From Chlorobiaceae bacterium (lineage in GTDB: Bacteria > Bacteroidota > Chlorobiia > Chlorobiales > Chlorobiaceae): a stretch of 44,785 nucleotides of DNA. The notes under the pieces were generated by a model, which had not been told where the DNA came from, did no database searches, and saw nothing but the letters and a program-made list of their open reading frames with translations. Both the position numbers and the translations under genes were made by a program. The stretch spans positions 109,974-154,758 of the forward strand of contig JAAXWQ010000004.1 in assembly GCA_013335115.1 (NCBI GenBank), written 5' to 3'. Below, piece by piece: positions 34,924 to 44,785 of this stretch (the stretch's first letter is position 1; each line of letters starts with the position of its first letter).

Positions 34924-36072
34924 TCAGGTGAATGTCGGGCAGCCCGCCGGCTCATTCCGGAGGCTATCCTGTTCATATGCCTGTTTGTTGTTTGCCAGCA
35001 ACCTGATGCGCGAAAACACGTAATCGAGCCTGTCTTCATTGAGGACCACCCGCGAATATCCGGTCGAACCGAGTTCCTCCACTGGCCGCCCCTCATGCCA
35101 TACCGACGCACCTCCCGTGCCGTTATGCCAGTAGACCAGCTTGATCTTGCCGTCCTCGATTTCGATGGCGGTGATCCCCCGCTTGCCGATGGCGCATCCG
35201 GAATTGAAAATACTCGGAATCGTGATGCTCCCGTAGCGACCGCTCCTGAGGCTTTTGCTGAATCCTTTCCGGTAGCATTCGTTGAGCTCAATCTTCAGTT
35301 GGCCAATCTCCTGCTCGATCTCATAGCGCCTGTCGCTGCATGCTGAAGAATAACCCCGGCAAAGATCCTCGATGCGATAGTTCAGGAAATCGAACTTCGA
35401 GAGGGATTCGAACAGCGGCCGGTGGGTATGGCCGATGATTGAAATAATCCCGGCGCGCTTTGAAAACTCATACACCGCTTTTTCGATCGTGTATCTTCGC
35501 CTGCTCTTGTGTGAAACAGAATAGTTGCGGATTCCTGCGGGCTTGGCAATGTAACGGAGAAGGTAGGACAACGACCGGCTTATGATGGAAAAAGGCTTAT
35601 TGAGGAACGGTGAAGCCTGATGCCCGTGGAAAAGCAATATGGTGTCGTTGCCGTAACGTAACGCCAATGATTCGACCAGCCATGGAGACAACGGGTATTG
35701 GTGCTCATCGATGAGGCCGAGATCGTGGTTGCCGTAGATTTTCCAGAAAAAACCCGACTCCCTGAAACGCAGGAAAAGTTCATAAAGGCCCGACCAGGCT
35801 TTTGCAATACTCGCGAATGAAAACTTCATCAACTCCTCTATGTCGCCGTTCAGGACGAGGCTGAAAGATCGCTCAAGGTAGTACTTCTCGAGCATCGTCT
35901 CGAAGAGGTGCGAGTTATGAAGGAAGTCATCGTTCCTCCCACCGTCGCCGATATGCAGATCGCTGAAAACGACCACACGGGAAGAGTCGTCAAGCGATAT
36001 CGCTGGCGCATTTCGAAGCAACGGTTCAAGAACCCGGGACGTTCCGGAATAGCCTTTCTCCATAACGTTCAT
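34924..36072 (-). CDS. calcineurin-like metallophosphoesterase, paralogue 1
   Basis: A 382-aa binuclear-metal phosphoesterase. Landmarks are SDLHIGDGGRNDDF (about 36-49), LVLNGDIEEL, IYGNHD, LLFHGHQAS and IISIIGHTHRP: the full D-x-H, GD, GNHD, H, GHTH set. It resembles LpxH-type enzymes in motif order but is over 120 residues longer, with an extra helical segment (SDRRYEIEQEIGQLKIELNE) and a C-terminal beta region (SIFNSGCAIGKRGITAIEIE). The paralogue at 37048-38127 shares every block. The substrate is unknown. It converges with the ParA gene. Confidence 0.88.
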   Translation of the reverse strand: MNVMEKGYSGTSRVLEPLLRNAPAISLDDSSRVVVFSDLHIGDGGRNDDFLHNSHLFETMLEKYYLERSFSLVLNGDIEELMKFSFASIAKAWSGLYELFLRFRESGFFWKIYGNHDLGLIDEHQYPLSPWLVESLALRYGNDTILLFHGHQASPFLNKPFSIISRSLSYLLRYIAKPAGIRNYSVSHKSRRRYTIEKAVYEFSKRAGIISIIGHTHRPLFESLSKFDFLNYRIEDLCRGYSSACSDRRYEIEQEIGQLKIELNECYRKGFSKSLRSGRYGSITIPSIFNSGCAIGKRGITAIEIEDGKIKLVYWHNGTGGASVWHEGRPVEELGSTGYSRVVLNEDRLDYVFSRIRLLANNKQAYEQDSLRNEPAGCPTFT

Positions 36073-37047: not shown

Positions 37048-38127
37048 TCAGGCCAGGAGGTTGATGCGGGAGAAGACGTAGTCGAGGTGGTCCTCGTTCA
37101 GCACGATGCGGAAGTAGCCGGTGTCGCCGAGCGGTTCCGGATCCGAGTTTCTGTCGCTGACGAACCGCCGCCCCTGCTTTCCCTTGAACCAGTAGACCAG
37201 CCTGATCCGGTCGCCGTCGATCTCCAGCGCCGTCACCCCCCGCTTGCCGATGGCGCAACCCGAATTGAATACGCTGGGGATGACGATGTTGTTATACCGT
37301 CCGCTGCGCAGGCCGATCTTCTTGCCCTCGGTGAAGCAGGCGTCGAGCATCGTCTTCAGCTCGACTATCCGCTCCTTGATCCGCAGGCGCTCCACGGGTG
37401 AAGCGGCCGGATAGGCGCGGCAAAGTTCTTCGATGCGGTAGTTCAGGTGGTCGACCTTGGAGAGCGACTCGAACAGCGGGCGGTGCGTATGGCCGATGAT
37501 CGAGACGATTTTCGCCTGGTTCGAGAAATCGTAGATCGACTTCTCGATGGCGAACCGACGCCGACTGTTGTAGGCAGTCGAGAAGTTCCTGATCCCCATC
37601 GGCTTGGCCACATAGCGCAGGAAGAGCACCACCGCACGGCTCACCATCGGATAGGTCTCCCAGAGCAGGATGGAGGCCTGGTGGCCGTGGAACAGCAGCA
37701 TCACCTCGTCGCCCCAGGTGAACCTGACCGATTCGACCAGATGCCCGGAAAGCCGGTAATCCCGCTCCTCGAACAGGTCGGCGTCGTGGTTCCCGTAGGT
37801 CTTCCAGAAAAAGCCGTTCTGTTCGAACCGCAGAAAAAGGTCGTAGATCCCCTTCCACTGCTCCTGAATGCTCTCCACGGAAAACTTGAACAGCTCCTCG
37901 ACGTCGCCGTTGAGCGCAAGGCTGTACTTTTCGGGTAGGTAGTAATCCTTAAGCATCGCGCGGACCAGGTCGGCATTGCGCTTGAACTCGTCGCGCCGCC
38001 CGCCGTTGCCCATATGCAGGTCGCTGAGTATCAGCACCTTCGACCCGGGGCCGAGCGCTATCGGTTTGGCGGTATTGAGCAGCCGCTCGAGATTCGGGTG
38101 TTTCTTTTGATGCAGGCGCATATGCAC
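37048..38127 (-). CDS. calcineurin-like metallophosphoesterase, paralogue 2
   Basis: A 359-aa sister of the protein at 34924-36072, with LSDLHMGNGGRRDEF, LALNGDVEELFKFSVESIQE, TYGNHDADLFEERDY, LLFHGHQASILLWET and VSIIGHTHRPLFESLS. The extra helical segment and the FNSGCAIGKRGVTALEI end are also kept, so both derive from a duplication. The GTG start at 38127 has AAGGA eight bases upstream; an ATG two codons on is the alternative. It is the upstream gene of the set phosphoesterase-PHP-phosphoesterase. Confidence 0.88.
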   Translation of the reverse strand: MHMRLHQKKHPNLERLLNTAKPIALGPGSKVLILSDLHMGNGGRRDEFKRNADLVRAMLKDYYLPEKYSLALNGDVEELFKFSVESIQEQWKGIYDLFLRFEQNGFFWKTYGNHDADLFEERDYRLSGHLVESVRFTWGDEVMLLFHGHQASILLWETYPMVSRAVVLFLRYVAKPMGIRNFSTAYNSRRRFAIEKSIYDFSNQAKIVSIIGHTHRPLFESLSKVDHLNYRIEELCRAYPAASPVERLRIKERIVELKTMLDACFTEGKKIGLRSGRYNNIVIPSVFNSGCAIGKRGVTALEIDGDRIRLVYWFKGKQGRRFVSDRNSDPEPLGDTGYFRIVLNEDHLDYVFSRINLLA

Positions 38128-39051: not shown

Positions 39052-39588
39052 ATGATGAAAATACTTTCTCCGAATGGGCTCCGCTGGCTGAAAGGATTCC
39101 ACCTGCTCGCCGCATCCTGCTGGATCGGAGGGGCGCTCTGCCTGATCACCCTCTACTTCCTCAAATCGGGTGTAGCCGACGGAGGAGAGCTCTACGGCAT
39201 CAACCGAAGCATCCACCATGTCGATATGAACATCGTCGTCTTGCCCGGAGCCATAGGGAGCCTGCTTACCGGCCTTTGCTACTCGATCTTCAGCCACTGG
39301 GGATTCTTCAGGCACCGGTGGCTCACGGTCAAGTGGATCGCGACCCTCTCCGCCATCCTCTTCGGGACATTCTTCCTTGGCCCCTGGGAAACCGCCATGA
39401 TGGATATCTCGGGTAAACTCGGCCTCGCCGCCCTGCAGGACACCACGTACCTCGACAGCCAGTTCCTGAACCTCGCCTTCGGCAGCCTGCAGGTCTCCGT
39501 ACTCGCAATCCTGCTCTTCATCTCGATTTTCAAACCCTGGAAAGCTAAGCCCGCCGCTGCTGGAGCACCAAAGGGCGGTGTCGCATGA
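39052..39588 (+). CDS. small integral membrane protein (DUF2269/CopD-like)
   Basis: A 178-aa protein with four or five membrane helices: GLRWLKGFHLLAASCWIGGA, IVVLPGAIGSLLTGLCYSIF, VKWIATLSAILFGTFFLGPW and VSVLAILLFISIFKPW. His residues near the first helices (GFHLLA, SIHHVDMN) recall DUF2269/CopD-type haem or metal membrane proteins. Function is not known. It starts 13 bp after trmH and overlaps the Nudix gene by 4 bp. Confidence 0.7.
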   Translation: MMKILSPNGLRWLKGFHLLAASCWIGGALCLITLYFLKSGVADGGELYGINRSIHHVDMNIVVLPGAIGSLLTGLCYSIFSHWGFFRHRWLTVKWIATLSAILFGTFFLGPWETAMMDISGKLGLAALQDTTYLDSQFLNLAFGSLQVSVLAILLFISIFKPWKAKPAAAGAPKGGVA

Positions 39589-39980
39589 AACGATCCGGAG
39601 CCAGCATCATCCTCGTCAACCCGCGCAGCGAAGTGCTCCTGCTCCTGCGCGACGACATCCCGGAGATCCCCTATCCGAACATGTGGGACCTTCCCGGCGG
39701 CCACGTCGAACCCGACGAGACCCCTGAATCCTGCATCGTACGAGAGATGCTGGAAGAGATCGAGACCGACGTCGCCTCCTGCACCCTCCTCAGGGTCTAC
39801 GACTTCCCCGACCGCTTCGAGCACATTTTCCTCATGCCCCTCGACCGCAACGCAGCCGACATCCCCCTGCACGAAGGCCAGTGCCTCCGCTGGTTCAGCA
39901 AGGGCGAACTGTCCGGCCTCCCCCTCGCCTACGGCTTTGACCTCGTCCTCGACGACTTCTTCGCCTCCACAGAACCGTAA
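39585..39980 (+). CDS. Nudix hydrolase
   Basis: A 131-aa Nudix protein that should cleave a nucleoside diphosphate linked to another group. The Nudix box GGHVEPDETPESCIVREMLEEIE (about residues 39-61) has the REMLEE core; the Gly usually following EE is replaced. The start overlaps the membrane-protein gene by 4 bp (ATGA). The substrate is unknown. Confidence 0.88.
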   Translation: MKRSGASIILVNPRSEVLLLLRDDIPEIPYPNMWDLPGGHVEPDETPESCIVREMLEEIETDVASCTLLRVYDFPDRFEHIFLMPLDRNAADIPLHEGQCLRWFSKGELSGLPLAYGFDLVLDDFFASTEP

Positions 39981-40003
39981 ACTCTGCCGATACCATCCAA
40001 CAC

Positions 40004-40029
40004 GAAGCCCCGGGGAGATCCGGGGCTTC
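40004..40029. terminator. bidirectional hairpin between convergent genes
   Basis: A perfect 10-bp GC-rich stem (40004-40013 with 40020-40029) with a 6-nt loop lies between the Nudix stop (39980) and the FtsZ-like stop (40083). T tracts are poor on both sides, but position favours termination from both directions. Confidence 0.6.
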
Positions 40030-40082
40030 ATGTATCCAGTGCCGTGCTCGACTTTTTGGCTCATCCATAGCCAGCACGCAAC

Positions 40083-41252
40083 TTACTCCGTGATGCGCCG
40101 TTCGAATGCGGGGGTTTCGGGCCTGCTTTTGTTGATACGGTCCCTATGCGGAACAGCGGAGGGCTGAAAGGAAGAGATCCCCTGCAGGACGTCGATGCGG
40201 ATATCCCTCTGAATGTAGGCCGGGGGCTTGATGCCCATGTTCGTGATCCCCGGCAGTGCAATGGGCCAGCCCGGGTGTTTGGTCGGCAGCTCGGTCGGCG
40301 GAACGGTTTTCGGCTCCTTTTGGACCCCCGTGACGATCAGCGTCGCCAGGGTCACCCCGGGTTCGGGCGACTGTTCGATATAGCCGTTGATGATATCGGC
40401 ATCGTTGCCGACACGATCCTGCAGGTAGTTCATCGCCCGGGTCAGGTCCTTCATGGCCACCTCCCCCGTTATGCTGACCATCACCCCTTTGACCCTGCCC
40501 ACCACCTCCTTGCCGATCTGCAGGCCCTTGAACGCCTCCATCACCGCCTTCAGCGCGCTCCCCTCTCCCGATGCCGTCGCCATCCCGATGGACGCATCTC
40601 CGGCGTTCTTCAGCAGTTCAGAAAAATCCGTGAAGCTGATATTGATATGGCCGCGGCAGGTGAGGACATCCGCGATGCTTTTCACCGACCCGCAGACCAA
40701 CTCGCCGGTCAGGGCGAATGCCTCATCGACCAGGGTCGCATCCGGAAACTGTGCCAGCACCTTCTCGTTATCGACCACGATCAGGGTATCCACATATTTC
40801 CTGAGCGAGGCGACCCCCTCCTCCGCGCTCCGGGCCTTGGCCTTGCACTCCCCGGCGAACGGCGTGGTGACGATCCCCAGCGTCAGGATCCCCATGTTCC
40901 TGGCTACCAGGGCAACCCCCGGCGTCAGCCAGGTCCCCGTGCCCTTGCCCATGCCCGCGACGAGGATGATCACGTTCGCTCCGTGCAACCGGGTGGCGAT
41001 ATGCCGGCGCTCCTCTTCGCCCACCTGCCCCCTCGTGGCCGAACCCGCGCCGATACGCAACCTGACCGGAGCCTTCGACTCCTGCAGGGCAAACGGATCG
41101 GAATGGATGGCCACGTAATCAACCCCCTCGACCTCCTTGCCGGCCATCTGGTTGACGACCTCACACCCGAACCTGCCGATGCCGACAACCTTTATACAGA
41201 TACCGGAAGCATCGTCAAGTGAAAGCTCGTCATATTCGAATTCGAAAGCCAT
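40083..41252 (-). CDS. divergent FtsZ paralogue
   Basis: A 389-aa protein of the FtsZ/tubulin superfamily. The overall order is FtsZ: ICIKVVGIGRFGCEVVNQM, DYVAIHSDPFALQESKAPVR, VAGMGKGTGTWLTPGVALVA, ILTLGIVTTPF, EEGVASLRKYVDTLIVVDNE and a T7 loop. Key positions differ. The first glycine-rich loop reads GRFGCE where GGGGGN is usual, the signature GGGTGTG reads GKGTGTW (102-108), and the T7 loop reads NISFTDF (204-210), where the first catalytic Asp of NxDxxD is Ser. The C-terminal tail lacks an obvious FtsA/ZipA-binding peptide. Standard FtsZ is therefore expected elsewhere. ATG 41252 is chosen; an ATG at 41288 also fits. Confidence 0.85.
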   Translation of the reverse strand: MAFEFEYDELSLDDASGICIKVVGIGRFGCEVVNQMAGKEVEGVDYVAIHSDPFALQESKAPVRLRIGAGSATRGQVGEEERRHIATRLHGANVIILVAGMGKGTGTWLTPGVALVARNMGILTLGIVTTPFAGECKAKARSAEEGVASLRKYVDTLIVVDNEKVLAQFPDATLVDEAFALTGELVCGSVKSIADVLTCRGHINISFTDFSELLKNAGDASIGMATASGEGSALKAVMEAFKGLQIGKEVVGRVKGVMVSITGEVAMKDLTRAMNYLQDRVGNDADIINGYIEQSPEPGVTLATLIVTGVQKEPKTVPPTELPTKHPGWPIALPGITNMGIKPPAYIQRDIRIDVLQGISSFQPSAVPHRDRINKSRPETPAFERRITE

Positions 41253-41288
41253 GGCGGTTGGTTGGTTGAGGTTCGAAGGGTGCCTCAT

Positions 41289-41758
41289 TTATATAAGAAT
41301 TGTACCACACACTGCAAGAATGAATGGTGGCAATTCATCCACAGACACCCGGAAACACCTCTGCCTGACCACCTGCTGCTGCCCAAGGTCCAATCACAGG
41401 AAAAAACAAGGTGATTATACCGAAGGAACATGGTCATGGATGGTTTGGCACAAATGATGGTTTCATCTGGAAATCAGGCATGCCGCTCCTGACAGTGCCC
41501 ATAATACCTGGCCTCGTCGGAGTAGAATGTCGACGAATCTCCGCCCACCCGGGACGGCATTTGTCCTACCCCCGGTCGTATCTTTTGACAAATGCGGATC
41601 CACGCCATTCCTTCTACGGCCTGCCCCGGACAAGCAGGAAAGGCTGGCGCCTTCGTCAATGGGCAAGCACTTGCCGAACCGTCGATCAAACGCTATACTG
41701 TGATAATCCAGCAGTTTCGGGTTATCGGCGTCACCAATCACCAACCGGACTGTCCCTC
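41289..41758. other. 470-bp region without a recognisable gene
   Basis: Between the FtsZ-like start and the 131-aa gene no reading frame shows conserved protein features on either strand; long frames here lack a good start and ribosome site. The right end holds a strong-looking promoter (41671-41699). The left end is AT-rich near 41290 and may carry the FtsZ-like promoter. Confidence 0.5.
41671..41699 (+). promoter_or_regulatory. sigma70-type promoter of the 131-aa gene
   Basis: TTGCCG (41671-41676) and TATACT (41694-41699) are separated by exactly 17 bp, 60 bp upstream of the ATG at 41759. Both hexamers are close to consensus. Confidence 0.65.
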
Positions 41759-42154
41759 ATGCACAACATCGTCAGGCTCAACTACCTCTACCGCGACGCC
41801 GGCAACGACAAAGCGTGGGGCTCGGTCGACTTCACCAATCCCGACCAGCTGGCCATCAAAGAGGTCGAACGCAGGCTCCGTAGCGATTTCGAGCAGGGCG
41901 AACTCTTCATCGCCCATCAGGTCGGCCTCCCCGAGCTCTTCTTCTACGCCACCGACCCGATCACCGAAGACGACCACTGCTACCACGAATTCCACTCCGT
42001 CGAAGCGATCGAAACACCCGAGGCCGTAGCGCCCAAACAATCGATCAGCGAATTCCTGACCGCCGTACGCTCAGCCGCTGAAGCCGGCTGGCGAGCCTTC
42101 AACCCGGCCGACCGGTTGCCAGAACTCAGGGCAAACGCTGCTCACGGGAGTTAA
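41759..42154 (+). CDS. 131-aa acidic protein of unknown function
   Basis: I do not know a named family. The protein starts MHNIVRLNYLYRDAGNDKAW and continues GSVDFTNPDQLAIKEVERRL, IAHQVGLPELFFYATDPITE and DDHCYHEFHSVEAIE, a compact alpha/beta soluble protein with many aromatic and acidic residues and no signal peptide. ATG 41759 is used because a promoter lies 60 bp upstream and the sequence before it shows no conservation; an open frame goes back to 41411. The helicase gene begins 38 bp downstream, so the two are probably one transcript. Confidence 0.7.
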   Translation: MHNIVRLNYLYRDAGNDKAWGSVDFTNPDQLAIKEVERRLRSDFEQGELFIAHQVGLPELFFYATDPITEDDHCYHEFHSVEAIETPEAVAPKQSISEFLTAVRSAAEAGWRAFNPADRLPELRANAAHGS

Positions 42155-42192
42155 GCATTAACTAATAGGCAGATAACTACAGCCCTCGTCTT

Positions 42193-44679
42193 ATGAGCCC
42201 GAACCTACCTCCTGGGTTTTACGATCTTCTCCATACGGTTGACCTCGACAAAAGGCTTCGGCAAAACGGACTTTTTGATCAGGCCAAATGGGCTCACGTC
42301 GACTCGAGTGAGCTGCCGCAGCGCTTAGCGCAGGCAATTGCCAAGGAACTCTCTATGCGCTTTGCCGAAGAGTTCTCTACCGTTAAAGAAGAGGACCTGC
42401 TTCACGCGATACGCCAACTCTTCAATGTGCCAGAAAAGCTTATCCCCGTTCTCAACGCACTGCGCCCGCAAGCCATCCAGGCGCTCCAAGAGATTCAATC
42501 TGATGCGCTGTTCCCATCGAATGCCACTCGCCCGGACACCCCGCTTTCGATCTCGGCACTTCTCACCGGGTCGTCTCGTTCCCCAGCGCTTCATACGCAA
42601 ATCATCAAAGAGCTGTCAAGCGCCGACCAGGCAGACTGGCTGGTTTCCTTCATCCGATACTCCGGACTGTTGCCAATCCTGCCAGCATTAAAAGATTTCA
42701 CCGCGATTCCCCATCCGAATGGCGGGCCAAGGCTTCGCATCGCCACCACCTCATACATGGGTGCAACCGAGTACAAAGCGATCGCTGAGCTACTCAAGCT
42801 ACCCAATACCGAAGTCCGGATCTCTTACGATACGAAGCGCACTCGCTTGCATGCCAAAGCATACATCTTCCACCGCAGCACCGGTTTCGGTTCAGCCTAC
42901 ATCGGTTCGGCGAACATCTCGAAAGCCGCGCTGGACGATGGCCTTGAATGGACCGCCAAAATCAGCCAGTACGAAACCGACCATCTCTGGCAACATGCCA
43001 TTGCCACGTTCGAATCCCACTGGGAAGATGATGCTGAATTTACCGTATGTCGCCAAGACGACCTGCCTCACCTTAGGGAGGCCTTACAGCATGAACGTGA
43101 ACAGGTAAACGGTACAGAGAACCCTGACGAAATTCCTTTCTTTGACCTCAGACCCTATGGTTATCAGCAGATAATTCTCGACGATATTCAGGATGAGCGA
43201 AACGCCGGCAAAAACAAGCATCTCGTCATCGCCGCTACTGGCACCGGAAAAACCATGGTTGCCGCATTCGACTATAAACGCTTCGCCAGCAGCACGAAAG
43301 CACTCCCAAAACTGCTTTACGTTGCCCACCGCCAAGAGATTCTCATTCAGGCACGCGGAGCATTTCGCCAAGTGCTCCGCAATGGGAGCTTTGGGGAGAT
43401 TGTTGTCGGTGGCTCAAATCCCGCTGACCAACGCCACCTCTTTTGCACCGTACAAAGCTGGCACAGCAAGGGTTTCGACAGACTCGACCCGGCACACTTC
43501 GATTATGTTGTCCTCGATGAGGCTCATCACGCAGCAGCAGGCACCTACCAAACGTTGATCAATCATGTCAAGCCAACATCGCTGCTCGGGCTCACCGCAA
43601 CACCGGAGCGAGCAGACAACCAAGACATCCGAAACGATTTCGGCGGCGTCTTCACGCACGAAATCCGCCTCCCTGAAGCGGTCGAACGTGCATTGCTCGT
43701 TCCGTTCCACTATTTCGGCATCCCTGACCTTGACGGCCTCGACTTTTCAGGCCTTGACTGGAAAAGAGGCAGTTATGACCAATCAGCGTTAAACGCCCTG
43801 ATTGCCTCGAACAAGAGCCGAGCCCATTGGGTCCTGAGCCAACTCGACCGTTACGTCAACAACATCACGCAAATCCGGGCACTCGGATTTTGCGTCAGCG
43901 TTGAACATGCCAACTTCATGGCCAACATCTGCAACGCCAATAATGTTAAAGCCATATCGCTCAGTGCAGAGTCTTCCCCTGAACTTCGCAAGACAGCACA
44001 GCAACAGCTTGAACAGCGTGAGATCAACATCATTTTCACGGTCGACCTCTATAACGAAGGCGTTGACATCCCGACGGTCGACACCGTCCTGTTCCTCCGC
44101 CCCACCGAAAGCCTCACTATCTTCCTCCAGCAACTTGGCCGAGGTTTGCGCCTCCACGAAGAGAAATCGCACCTCACCGTTCTGGACTTCATTGCGCCCC
44201 AACACCGCAATTTCAGCTATGCCAAACGATTCCGGGCACTGTCAAGCAATCCTGAACGAGCACTGCGGCCGCAGATTGAATCTGACATGCCTTACCTGCC
44301 AGCAGGTTGCCTCGTGCATCTCGAGAAGCAGGCTAAAGAGCATGTGCTCAAAAACATAACTTCGGCCACAAACGCCCTTCGAAGCAACCAACTCCTGCAG
44401 GAACTCCGGCAAATGCAAGGTTCCACCAGCCTCAAGGCGATGCTCGAATATTTGAACCTGGAGTCTCCAGACGAAATCTACAGGAAAGGGCTTCCCCACC
44501 TGCTCTTGGCTGAAGCTCAGGGTTCATTGAGGAGCGACGAAATACCCGGTTATGGCAAATCTCTTGCCGCCGGCTTCCGTCGACTGTTACTTATGGATGA
44601 CATGGATATCGTCAGCGATGGTGCGGCATACCTCAGCGGCAACAAAGCCAAATTGCCGGAATTGAGTACACTGGACTAA
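42193..44679 (+). CDS. PLD-nuclease/DEAH helicase of the DUF3427 type, C-terminally truncated
   Basis: An 828-aa superfamily 2 helicase with a nuclease-like N-terminal half. RLHAKAYIFHRSTGFGSAYI and GSANISKAAL (about 218-247) form a phospholipase-D-type HxK site; IAATGTGKT (Walker A, about 346-354), VLDEAHHAA (441), LTATPERAD and QQLGRGLRLHEEK (motif VI, about 645) define the helicase. After it the DUF3427 region starts (YLPAGCLVHLEKQAKEHVLK), but the protein ends soon after, at PELSTLD, within a 24-bp repeat array. Full DUF3427 proteins run to 950-1050 aa, so the C-terminus seems lost. Such proteins often lie in defence or mobile regions. Confidence 0.85.
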   Translation: MSPNLPPGFYDLLHTVDLDKRLRQNGLFDQAKWAHVDSSELPQRLAQAIAKELSMRFAEEFSTVKEEDLLHAIRQLFNVPEKLIPVLNALRPQAIQALQEIQSDALFPSNATRPDTPLSISALLTGSSRSPALHTQIIKELSSADQADWLVSFIRYSGLLPILPALKDFTAIPHPNGGPRLRIATTSYMGATEYKAIAELLKLPNTEVRISYDTKRTRLHAKAYIFHRSTGFGSAYIGSANISKAALDDGLEWTAKISQYETDHLWQHAIATFESHWEDDAEFTVCRQDDLPHLREALQHEREQVNGTENPDEIPFFDLRPYGYQQIILDDIQDERNAGKNKHLVIAATGTGKTMVAAFDYKRFASSTKALPKLLYVAHRQEILIQARGAFRQVLRNGSFGEIVVGGSNPADQRHLFCTVQSWHSKGFDRLDPAHFDYVVLDEAHHAAAGTYQTLINHVKPTSLLGLTATPERADNQDIRNDFGGVFTHEIRLPEAVERALLVPFHYFGIPDLDGLDFSGLDWKRGSYDQSALNALIASNKSRAHWVLSQLDRYVNNITQIRALGFCVSVEHANFMANICNANNVKAISLSAESSPELRKTAQQQLEQREINIIFTVDLYNEGVDIPTVDTVLFLRPTESLTIFLQQLGRGLRLHEEKSHLTVLDFIAPQHRNFSYAKRFRALSSNPERALRPQIESDMPYLPAGCLVHLEKQAKEHVLKNITSATNALRSNQLLQELRQMQGSTSLKAMLEYLNLESPDEIYRKGLPHLLLAEAQGSLRSDEIPGYGKSLAAGFRRLLLMDDMDIVSDGAAYLSGNKAKLPELSTLD

Positions 44680-44785
44680 ACTGTGCCACTTGTTCTGGAG
44701 TAAAGTAGGCCACCGGTTCTGGAGCAAAGTGTGCCAGGAATTCTGGAGTAAAGTGTGCCACCCCCGCCGCACGGATTTGTAACAT
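44671..44785. mobile_element. IS21-family-like element end (partial), four 24-bp repeats
   Basis: CTGGAGTAAAGTGTGCCA or close variants begin at 44671, 44695, 44719 and 44743, an exact 24-bp period. Multiple terminal repeats containing AAAGTGTGCCAC are characteristic of the ends of one group of IS21-like elements. The first copy supplies the last two codons and stop of the helicase. No istA/istB gene is visible because the window ends at 44785. An ordinary tandem repeat is the alternative. Confidence 0.6.

Follow-up and report, generated by a model that had tools for sequence, protein, structure and literature searches.

In the accepted picture FtsZ forms a polymer that treadmills at the expense of GTP, and the stretch of DNA that we analysed (the window, 44,785 nucleotides of a Chlorobiaceae genome) encodes an FtsZ relative in which the sites that hold and hydrolyse GTP are altered. 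The question raised by this locus is whether such a protein is the division FtsZ of its cell and, if it is not, what a second FtsZ of this kind could be doing. We call the gene ftsZ-beta, beta being the subtype of FtsZ paralogue found in the window and alpha a milder subtype found in related genomes.

Identity of the gene and its canonical counterpart

40083..41252, minus strand: ftsZ-beta, a degenerate FtsZ paralogue of 389 aa, characterized by Pfam, TIGR00065, a residue table, a tree, Foldseek and dN/dS

The open reading frame is intact, and its strand and ends are as given in the preliminary description of the window. The start at 41252 (MAFEFEYD) is consistent with all homologues, and DNA similarity to the orthologue in genome G017 sets in some 19 bp before it; an alternative in-frame ATG further upstream, at 41288, agrees neither with the homologues nor with the edge of that similarity. 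The Tubulin/FtsZ GTPase domain (PF00091) is matched at 81 bits with a cut-off of 33, and the FtsZ C-terminal domain (PF12327) is matched over its full length (1-95/95) at 24.2 bits, where the cut-off is 27. Because TIGR00065 gives 196.9 bits, under its equivalog cut-off of 295.2, the protein classes by profile as an FtsZ homologue and not as an FtsZ equivalog; its identity to canonical FtsZ is approximately 40%. An AlphaFold model for which six natural family members were the input is moderately good (mean pLDDT 57, with most of the N-terminal domain at 75-90), and solved FtsZ structures fill the Foldseek matches listed for it (best E 2e-22, TM-score 0.82 by target length), a level of agreement that excludes a chance resemblance to FtsZ. 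We found no description of this FtsZ subfamily in the open-access literature.

The window is part of contig C21 of a 2.1 Mb genome (29 contigs, 99.6% complete) whose genus we take to be Chlorobaculum, with Chlorobium as the sister genus. According to the preliminary description, the absence of any other ftsZ from the genome would make this gene the division FtsZ. A canonical ftsZ does exist, on another contig (C1:207781-209043, minus strand), where it stands beside ftsA at the end of a dcw cluster with the order ftsW, murG, murC, murB, ftsQ, ftsA, ftsZ; a role of FtsZ-beta as the division FtsZ is thereby ruled out. Within the window it is likewise true that ftsZ-beta has no fts or mur gene beside it. 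Contig C12 (G000:C12:1-3689, L126), which carries the end of an ftsW followed by murG, murC and murB, was considered as a second dcw cluster and is treated as a probable contaminant because it is 94% identical to G018, another Chlorobaculum, and 76% identical to the genome's own cluster; its FtsW fragment was left out of our FtsW counts.

Distribution, origin and selection

Divergent FtsZ paralogues occur in 17 of the 86 Chlorobiaceae genomes, and every carrier (17/17) also has a canonical copy. Eight carriers have the beta subtype, 12 have alpha and three have both. Among the sampled genomes outside Chlorobiaceae none has more than one FtsZ, except for one genome that is 13% contaminated. In C. 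tepidum the profile search gave a single FtsZ. A search of genome contigs with FtsZ-beta as a single sequence gave no match, and when an alignment served as query it matched 7 contigs of Chlorobiaceae and an FtsZ from Acidobacteriota. FtsZ-beta is dispensable, since it is missing from most relatives and its copy in genome G097 is damaged.

The tree that had been proposed as a check places FtsZ-beta as a paralogue nested among the Chlorobiaceae FtsZs, and this placement, together with the separate canonical ftsZ in the dcw cluster, bears out the description of the protein as a divergent FtsZ paralogue. Because the 18 clean paralogues form one clade (support 100/100) inside the Chlorobiaceae FtsZs, we take them to descend from a single lineage-specific duplication within this family. 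A topology in which the canonical copies form a clade that excludes the paralogues was rejected (p-AU 0.007); grouping of the paralogues with Chlorobaculum gave p-AU 0.21, which leaves the genus of the duplication unsettled by the topology test, and the long branches make the exact attachment of the paralogue clade uncertain. An origin from a phage or other foreign tubulin (PhuZ/TubZ) is opposed by this nesting, by a search of PHROGs, which gave no match, and by a search of viral contigs, which gave no relative.

Ratios of dN/dS, calculated by the Nei-Gojobori method, are 0.28 (window and G017) and 0.20 (window and G005) for beta, 0.27-0.31 among the Chlorobium beta copies and 0.11-0.24 among the alpha copies. 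Since canonical ftsZ pairs give 0.10, selection on ftsZ-beta, as judged from the 0.20-0.28 of the window pairs, is purifying but relaxed. The synonymous divergence between the window genome and G005 is 1.21 for beta and 1.29 for canonical ftsZ, values that are near saturation; they are compatible with an old residence of ftsZ-beta in Chlorobaculum and many losses. These figures also bear on the possibility that the gene is a functionless, decaying duplicate. Its dN/dS is 2-3 times that of canonical ftsZ, one copy is damaged and many genomes are without the gene, all of which would be expected of decay; on the other side are open reading frames that are intact, share 45-63% identity and give dN/dS 0.20-0.31, and the retention of D212, glycine and tail positions in 18/18 paralogues. 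We regard decay as highly improbable, and a dead pseudogene in particular is unlikely given the dN/dS values and the pattern of retained residues.

Three further observations concern the other copies. In genome G080, FtsZ-beta lies in two pieces at the ends of contigs C6 and C30 (L087:8042-8413, plus strand, and L086:8538-9455, minus strand), through either an assembly gap or an interruption. The alpha subtype, present in 12 Chlorobium genomes, has T1 intact apart from G23C, has lost T3 and has D209 changed to N; its loci (L073, L074, L076, L078, L079, L080, L038 and others) often have a conserved order near genes for an Rrf2-type regulator and hydroxylamine-reductase-like proteins. A third kind of extra FtsZ, with canonical T1, T3, T4 and T7 motifs, occurs in G031, G029 and G070, at the following loci.

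L041:7919-9316, minus strand: third-kind extra FtsZ
L040:6753-8150, minus strand: third-kind extra FtsZ
L085:8168-9325, plus strand: third-kind extra FtsZ

Altered and retained residues

Residues are numbered as in E. coli FtsZ, and the reference is the set of positions invariant in canonical Chlorobiales FtsZ.

41166..41198, minus strand: T1 region, GIGRFGCEVVN (GVGGCGGNAVN in canonical Chlorobi FtsZ)
41028..41051, minus strand, approximate: site of the missing T3 phosphate loop, with a short GAGSATRG left (canonical GLGAGADP)
40920..40958, minus strand: T4 region, AGMGKGTGTWLTP, in which the sole unusual change is G111 to W
40617..40655, minus strand: T7 region, GHINISFTDFSEL, with D209 changed to S and D212 kept
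40083..40118, minus strand: C-terminal tail, PETPAFERRITE and stop, counterpart of the FtsA-docking peptide, which is PDTPAYLRRKNG in the genome's own canonical FtsZ

The three altered sites first noticed (GRFGCE, GKGTGTW and NISFTDF) are all present, and two of them need qualification. In T4 the lysine of GKGTG is normal for the lineage, as the canonical Chlorobiales motif is GMGKGTGTG with K106 in 49/49 rows, so that only the G111W of the GMGKGTGTW in FtsZ-beta is abnormal. In T7 one catalytic Asp has indeed become Ser (S209); the second, D212, is kept, as is N207, and of the two catalytic aspartates of T7 one alone is thus missing. This pattern is general, in that position 209 is N, S or G and D212 is retained in 18/18 paralogues. 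In T1 the canonical G20 C21 G22 G23 N24 has become R20 F21 G22 C23 E24. Beyond the sites of the preliminary description, the T3 loop GLGAG is gone, a loss common to all paralogues, and N186/D187 of T6 are replaced by G186/E187; the losses in T1 and T6 belong to the beta subtype. Counted over canonical-invariant positions, the window protein keeps 5/11 in T1, 0/7 in T3, 9/12 in T4, 1/7 in T6 and 4/9 in T7, as well as 4/5 in T5, 6/8 in H5, 8/9 in S6/H6 and 3/4 in the tail. On the T7, H8 and H10 surfaces, conservation reaches no more than about one half. The tail, kept across the paralogues, retains in FtsZ-beta the FtsA/ZipA-docking peptide as PETPAFERRITE, with the Leu of PAFLR exchanged for Glu; the Leu of canonical PAYLRR is Glu in the window and in G005 (PAFERR) and Gln in G017. 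FtsZ-beta also retains PAYIxR, the inner motif of Chlorobi FtsZ.

The loop set T1/T3/T4/T6 that canonical FtsZ uses to bind GTP is thus incomplete in FtsZ-beta. Given these losses, and because E. coli FtsZ D212A keeps 7% of its GTPase activity (cited in PMC8142252) and FtsZ D209A forms aggregates and no filaments in yeast (PMC3684127), loss of GTP hydrolysis is expected. It had been suggested that the protein may bind GTP without normal turnover; the second half of this suggestion agrees with our expectation, and the first is weakened, as good binding itself has likely been lost or become poor because the nucleotide-holding T1, T3 and T6 are also degraded. The nearest explanation to that wording is that FtsZ-beta binds GTP, turns it over slowly and forms more stable mixed filaments that would stabilize the ring. 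This would draw on the retained GKGTGT core, E138, N165, N207 and D212, and it has to contend with the absence of T3, with G20R, G23C, N24E, N186G and D187E, and with a bulky Trp at G111; we consider it doubtful.

Genomic neighborhood

39585..39980, plus strand: Nudix gene that borders the insert on its left and is convergent with ftsZ-beta, as in G017
39981..44785, no strand assigned: accessory insert of at least 4.8 kb, reaching the contig end, between nudix and a TMEM175-like/trxB block that is adjacent to it in G019
42193..44679, plus strand: protein with PLD and superfamily 2 helicase domains, type IV restriction-enzyme-like (Pfam; PADLOC mREase_IV, 537 bits)

The window and G017 share a block of metallophosphoesterase, trmH, hemJ-like and nudix genes, with ftsZ-beta at its end, tail to tail with nudix. 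The same block is present without any ftsZ relative in G019, G004, G006 and G007 (hemJ being unmatched in G006 and G007), and in G019 it is followed by a gene that we name TMEM175-like and by trxB. In the window genome trxB lies near the end of contig C6 (81882-82814 of 84579). Because the window stops with C21 and the trxB side is at the C6 end, an insert no shorter than 4.8 kb, with FtsZ-beta and the PLD-helicase protein in it, lies between these two contig ends. Elsewhere in the window, two related calcineurin-like phosphoesterases (34924-36072 and 37048-38127, both minus strand, approximately 55% identical) flank a PHP-domain gene, and tandem homologues of them occur in G004, G006 and G007.

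The restriction-like neighbor and the patchy distribution of the gene would fit a role in phage defence, with FtsZ-beta as a dispensable FtsZ look-alike that soaks up or reports phage-encoded FtsZ inhibitors, and an immune protein that senses phage T7 Gp0.4 bound to FtsZ is known (PMC13423816). FtsZ-beta itself matches no defence family in PADLOC, no conserved defence genes accompany it across genomes and the kept tail would be left unexplained, and we judge this role very unlikely.

A second FtsW and a vWA gene

Some related genomes with the beta subtype differ from that of the window in having the gene close to an ftsW paralogue. This extra FtsW (FtsW2) was found in only four of the 86 Chlorobiaceae genomes (G005, G032, G034 and G097), all of them beta carriers, and in 4/4 it lies 0.2-3.2 kb from the FtsZ-beta gene.

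L033:12495-13727, minus strand: FtsW2, near an FtsZ-beta gene
L037:10798-12057, plus strand: FtsW2, near an FtsZ-beta gene
L039:4498-5862, plus strand: FtsW2, near an FtsZ-beta gene
L075:8909-10156, minus strand: FtsW2, near an FtsZ-beta gene
L034:1012-1605, plus strand: vWA-domain-like gene (phage family phrog_7371)
L033:7373-8059, plus strand: vWA-domain-like gene (phrog_7371)
L039:6602-8368, plus strand: vWA-domain-like gene (phrog_7371)

The co-occurrence of FtsW2 and FtsZ-beta has a Fisher p of 3e-5, which does not include their proximity and should be read with the fact that G034 and G097 are near-copies (96%), leaving about three independent cases. FtsW2 is 63-79% identical to canonical Chlorobiaceae FtsW and keeps the conserved FtsW stretches and SEDS motifs, and in a tree the extra FtsWs, even that of the Chlorobaculum genome G005, fall together with a Chlorobium FtsW. 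In G005, G017 and G034 the vWA gene immediately precedes FtsZ-beta and is read in the same direction, the intervals being 67, 176 and 100 bp; vWA-domain-like genes of this family are present in 16 of the 86 genomes. A WYL-type regulator that lies near some beta loci was set aside as not specific to them, because 10 of the 12 genomes in which it was sought have it, with no distinction between carriers and non-carriers.

These associations suggest that FtsZ-beta, with or without the vWA protein, could form with FtsW2 a small accessory division module for special septum or envelope synthesis, and that the window genome lost FtsW2 or never had it. Against such a module, four of the eight beta genomes, that of the window among them, are without FtsW2, stops break the gene in G097, the FtsW2 and FtsZ-beta trees disagree in detail and the gene order varies. 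We keep the module as a rival and not as our verdict because the searches of the window genome gave no FtsW2 and no vWA gene of this kind, and on balance we hold it to be unlikely. A bolder form of the idea, which we view with considerable doubt, is a transferable second division module of an accessory kind, in which a scaffold derived from FtsZ and independent of nucleotide would dock through its tail and be paired with a dedicated FtsW and a vWA protein, the window genome having a reduced form.

Proposed function

Our preferred reading, held tentatively and with somewhat less than even confidence, is that FtsZ-beta, a paralogue turned pseudo-GTPase, adjusts the behaviour of the normal Z-ring. 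The earlier suggestion that the protein may co-polymerise with the main FtsZ or regulate it is thus still the likeliest guess. One duplication of ftsZ inside Chlorobiaceae, the green sulfur bacteria, would have given rise to a copy kept as an accessory gene. In its sequence the fold is preserved, as are the T5-H5-S6 region, T4 for the most part, D212 and the motif of the C-terminal tail, whereas the phosphate loop T3, important residues of T1 and T6 and the catalytic D209 are gone. In other bacteria the tail motif docks FtsZ to membrane partners. Such a protein would not hydrolyse GTP, would probably bind it poorly and would not treadmill alone; most likely it would cap or insert into canonical FtsZ filaments, occupy FtsA through its tail, or both, and ring dynamics would be damped or delayed under some condition. 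The canonical copy in every carrier, the single clade, the loss of D209 with retention of D212, the purifying selection and the FtsZ fold argue for a modulator, and plant FtsZ1, which restrains FtsZ2 assembly, is a precedent for one FtsZ tuning another (PMC8142252). Counting against it, the exchange of the tail Leu for Glu or Gln could weaken docking, the T7, H8 and H10 surfaces are kept only by about half as noted above, the gene is dispensable, as its absence from most relatives and the damaged copy in G097 show, and plant FtsZ1 required its own GTPase to restrain FtsZ2 (PMC8142252).

A natural FtsZ subfamily that is consistently without the GTP pocket and D209, and in which purifying selection acts on a protein with D212, the fold and the docking tail, provides separation-of-function variants ready made. 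With them one could ask if an FtsZ is of use to the cell when it turns over no GTP, and if parts of the division machinery such as FtsZ and FtsW can be copied and passed from genus to genus as one accessory unit.

Comparison with known systems

With canonical FtsZ (TIGR00065) FtsZ-beta has in common the fold, the domain order, the level of identity, D212, the T5/H5 region and the C-terminal tail motif; it differs in its degraded T1, T3, T4 end, T6 and D209, in its place outside dcw, in being accessory and in scoring under the equivalog cut-off. The FtsZ of Nitrosopumilus maritimus is similarly without the conserved GTP-binding motif or T7 loop, exists beside another division system and does not polymerize in yeast (PMC3684127). 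It is the sole FtsZ of an organism whose cells are divided by Cdv proteins, whereas in Chlorobiaceae the degenerate protein is a paralogue of recent origin, specific to the lineage, and the cell still has a normal FtsZ. The chloroplast FtsZ1 and FtsZ2 of plants (PMC8142252) are alike in that two FtsZs coexist and one tunes the assembly of the other, as we propose for FtsZ-beta; plant FtsZ1, however, keeps the GTPase required for its effect and is without the C-terminal peptide, and FtsZ-beta, with its predicted loss of GTPase, is the reverse on both counts. FtsZl1 and FtsZl2 (Makarova and Koonin 2010, PMC2875224) are also divergent FtsZ relatives, and a vWA gene, which is present at some beta loci, is frequent in the operons of FtsZl1. 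FtsZl1 is without a recognizable T6-H7 and FtsZ C-domain and has a long coiled coil and a helical C-terminal domain, and FtsZl2 has an extra C-terminal mixed alpha/beta region of approximately 300 aa and intact nucleotide motifs (PMC2875224). FtsZ-beta belongs to neither family: at 389 aa it has its FtsZ C-domain region aligned in full, which separates it from FtsZl1, and it is without the approximately 300 aa region of FtsZl2. Unlike either, it combines a complete FtsZ architecture with degraded nucleotide motifs.
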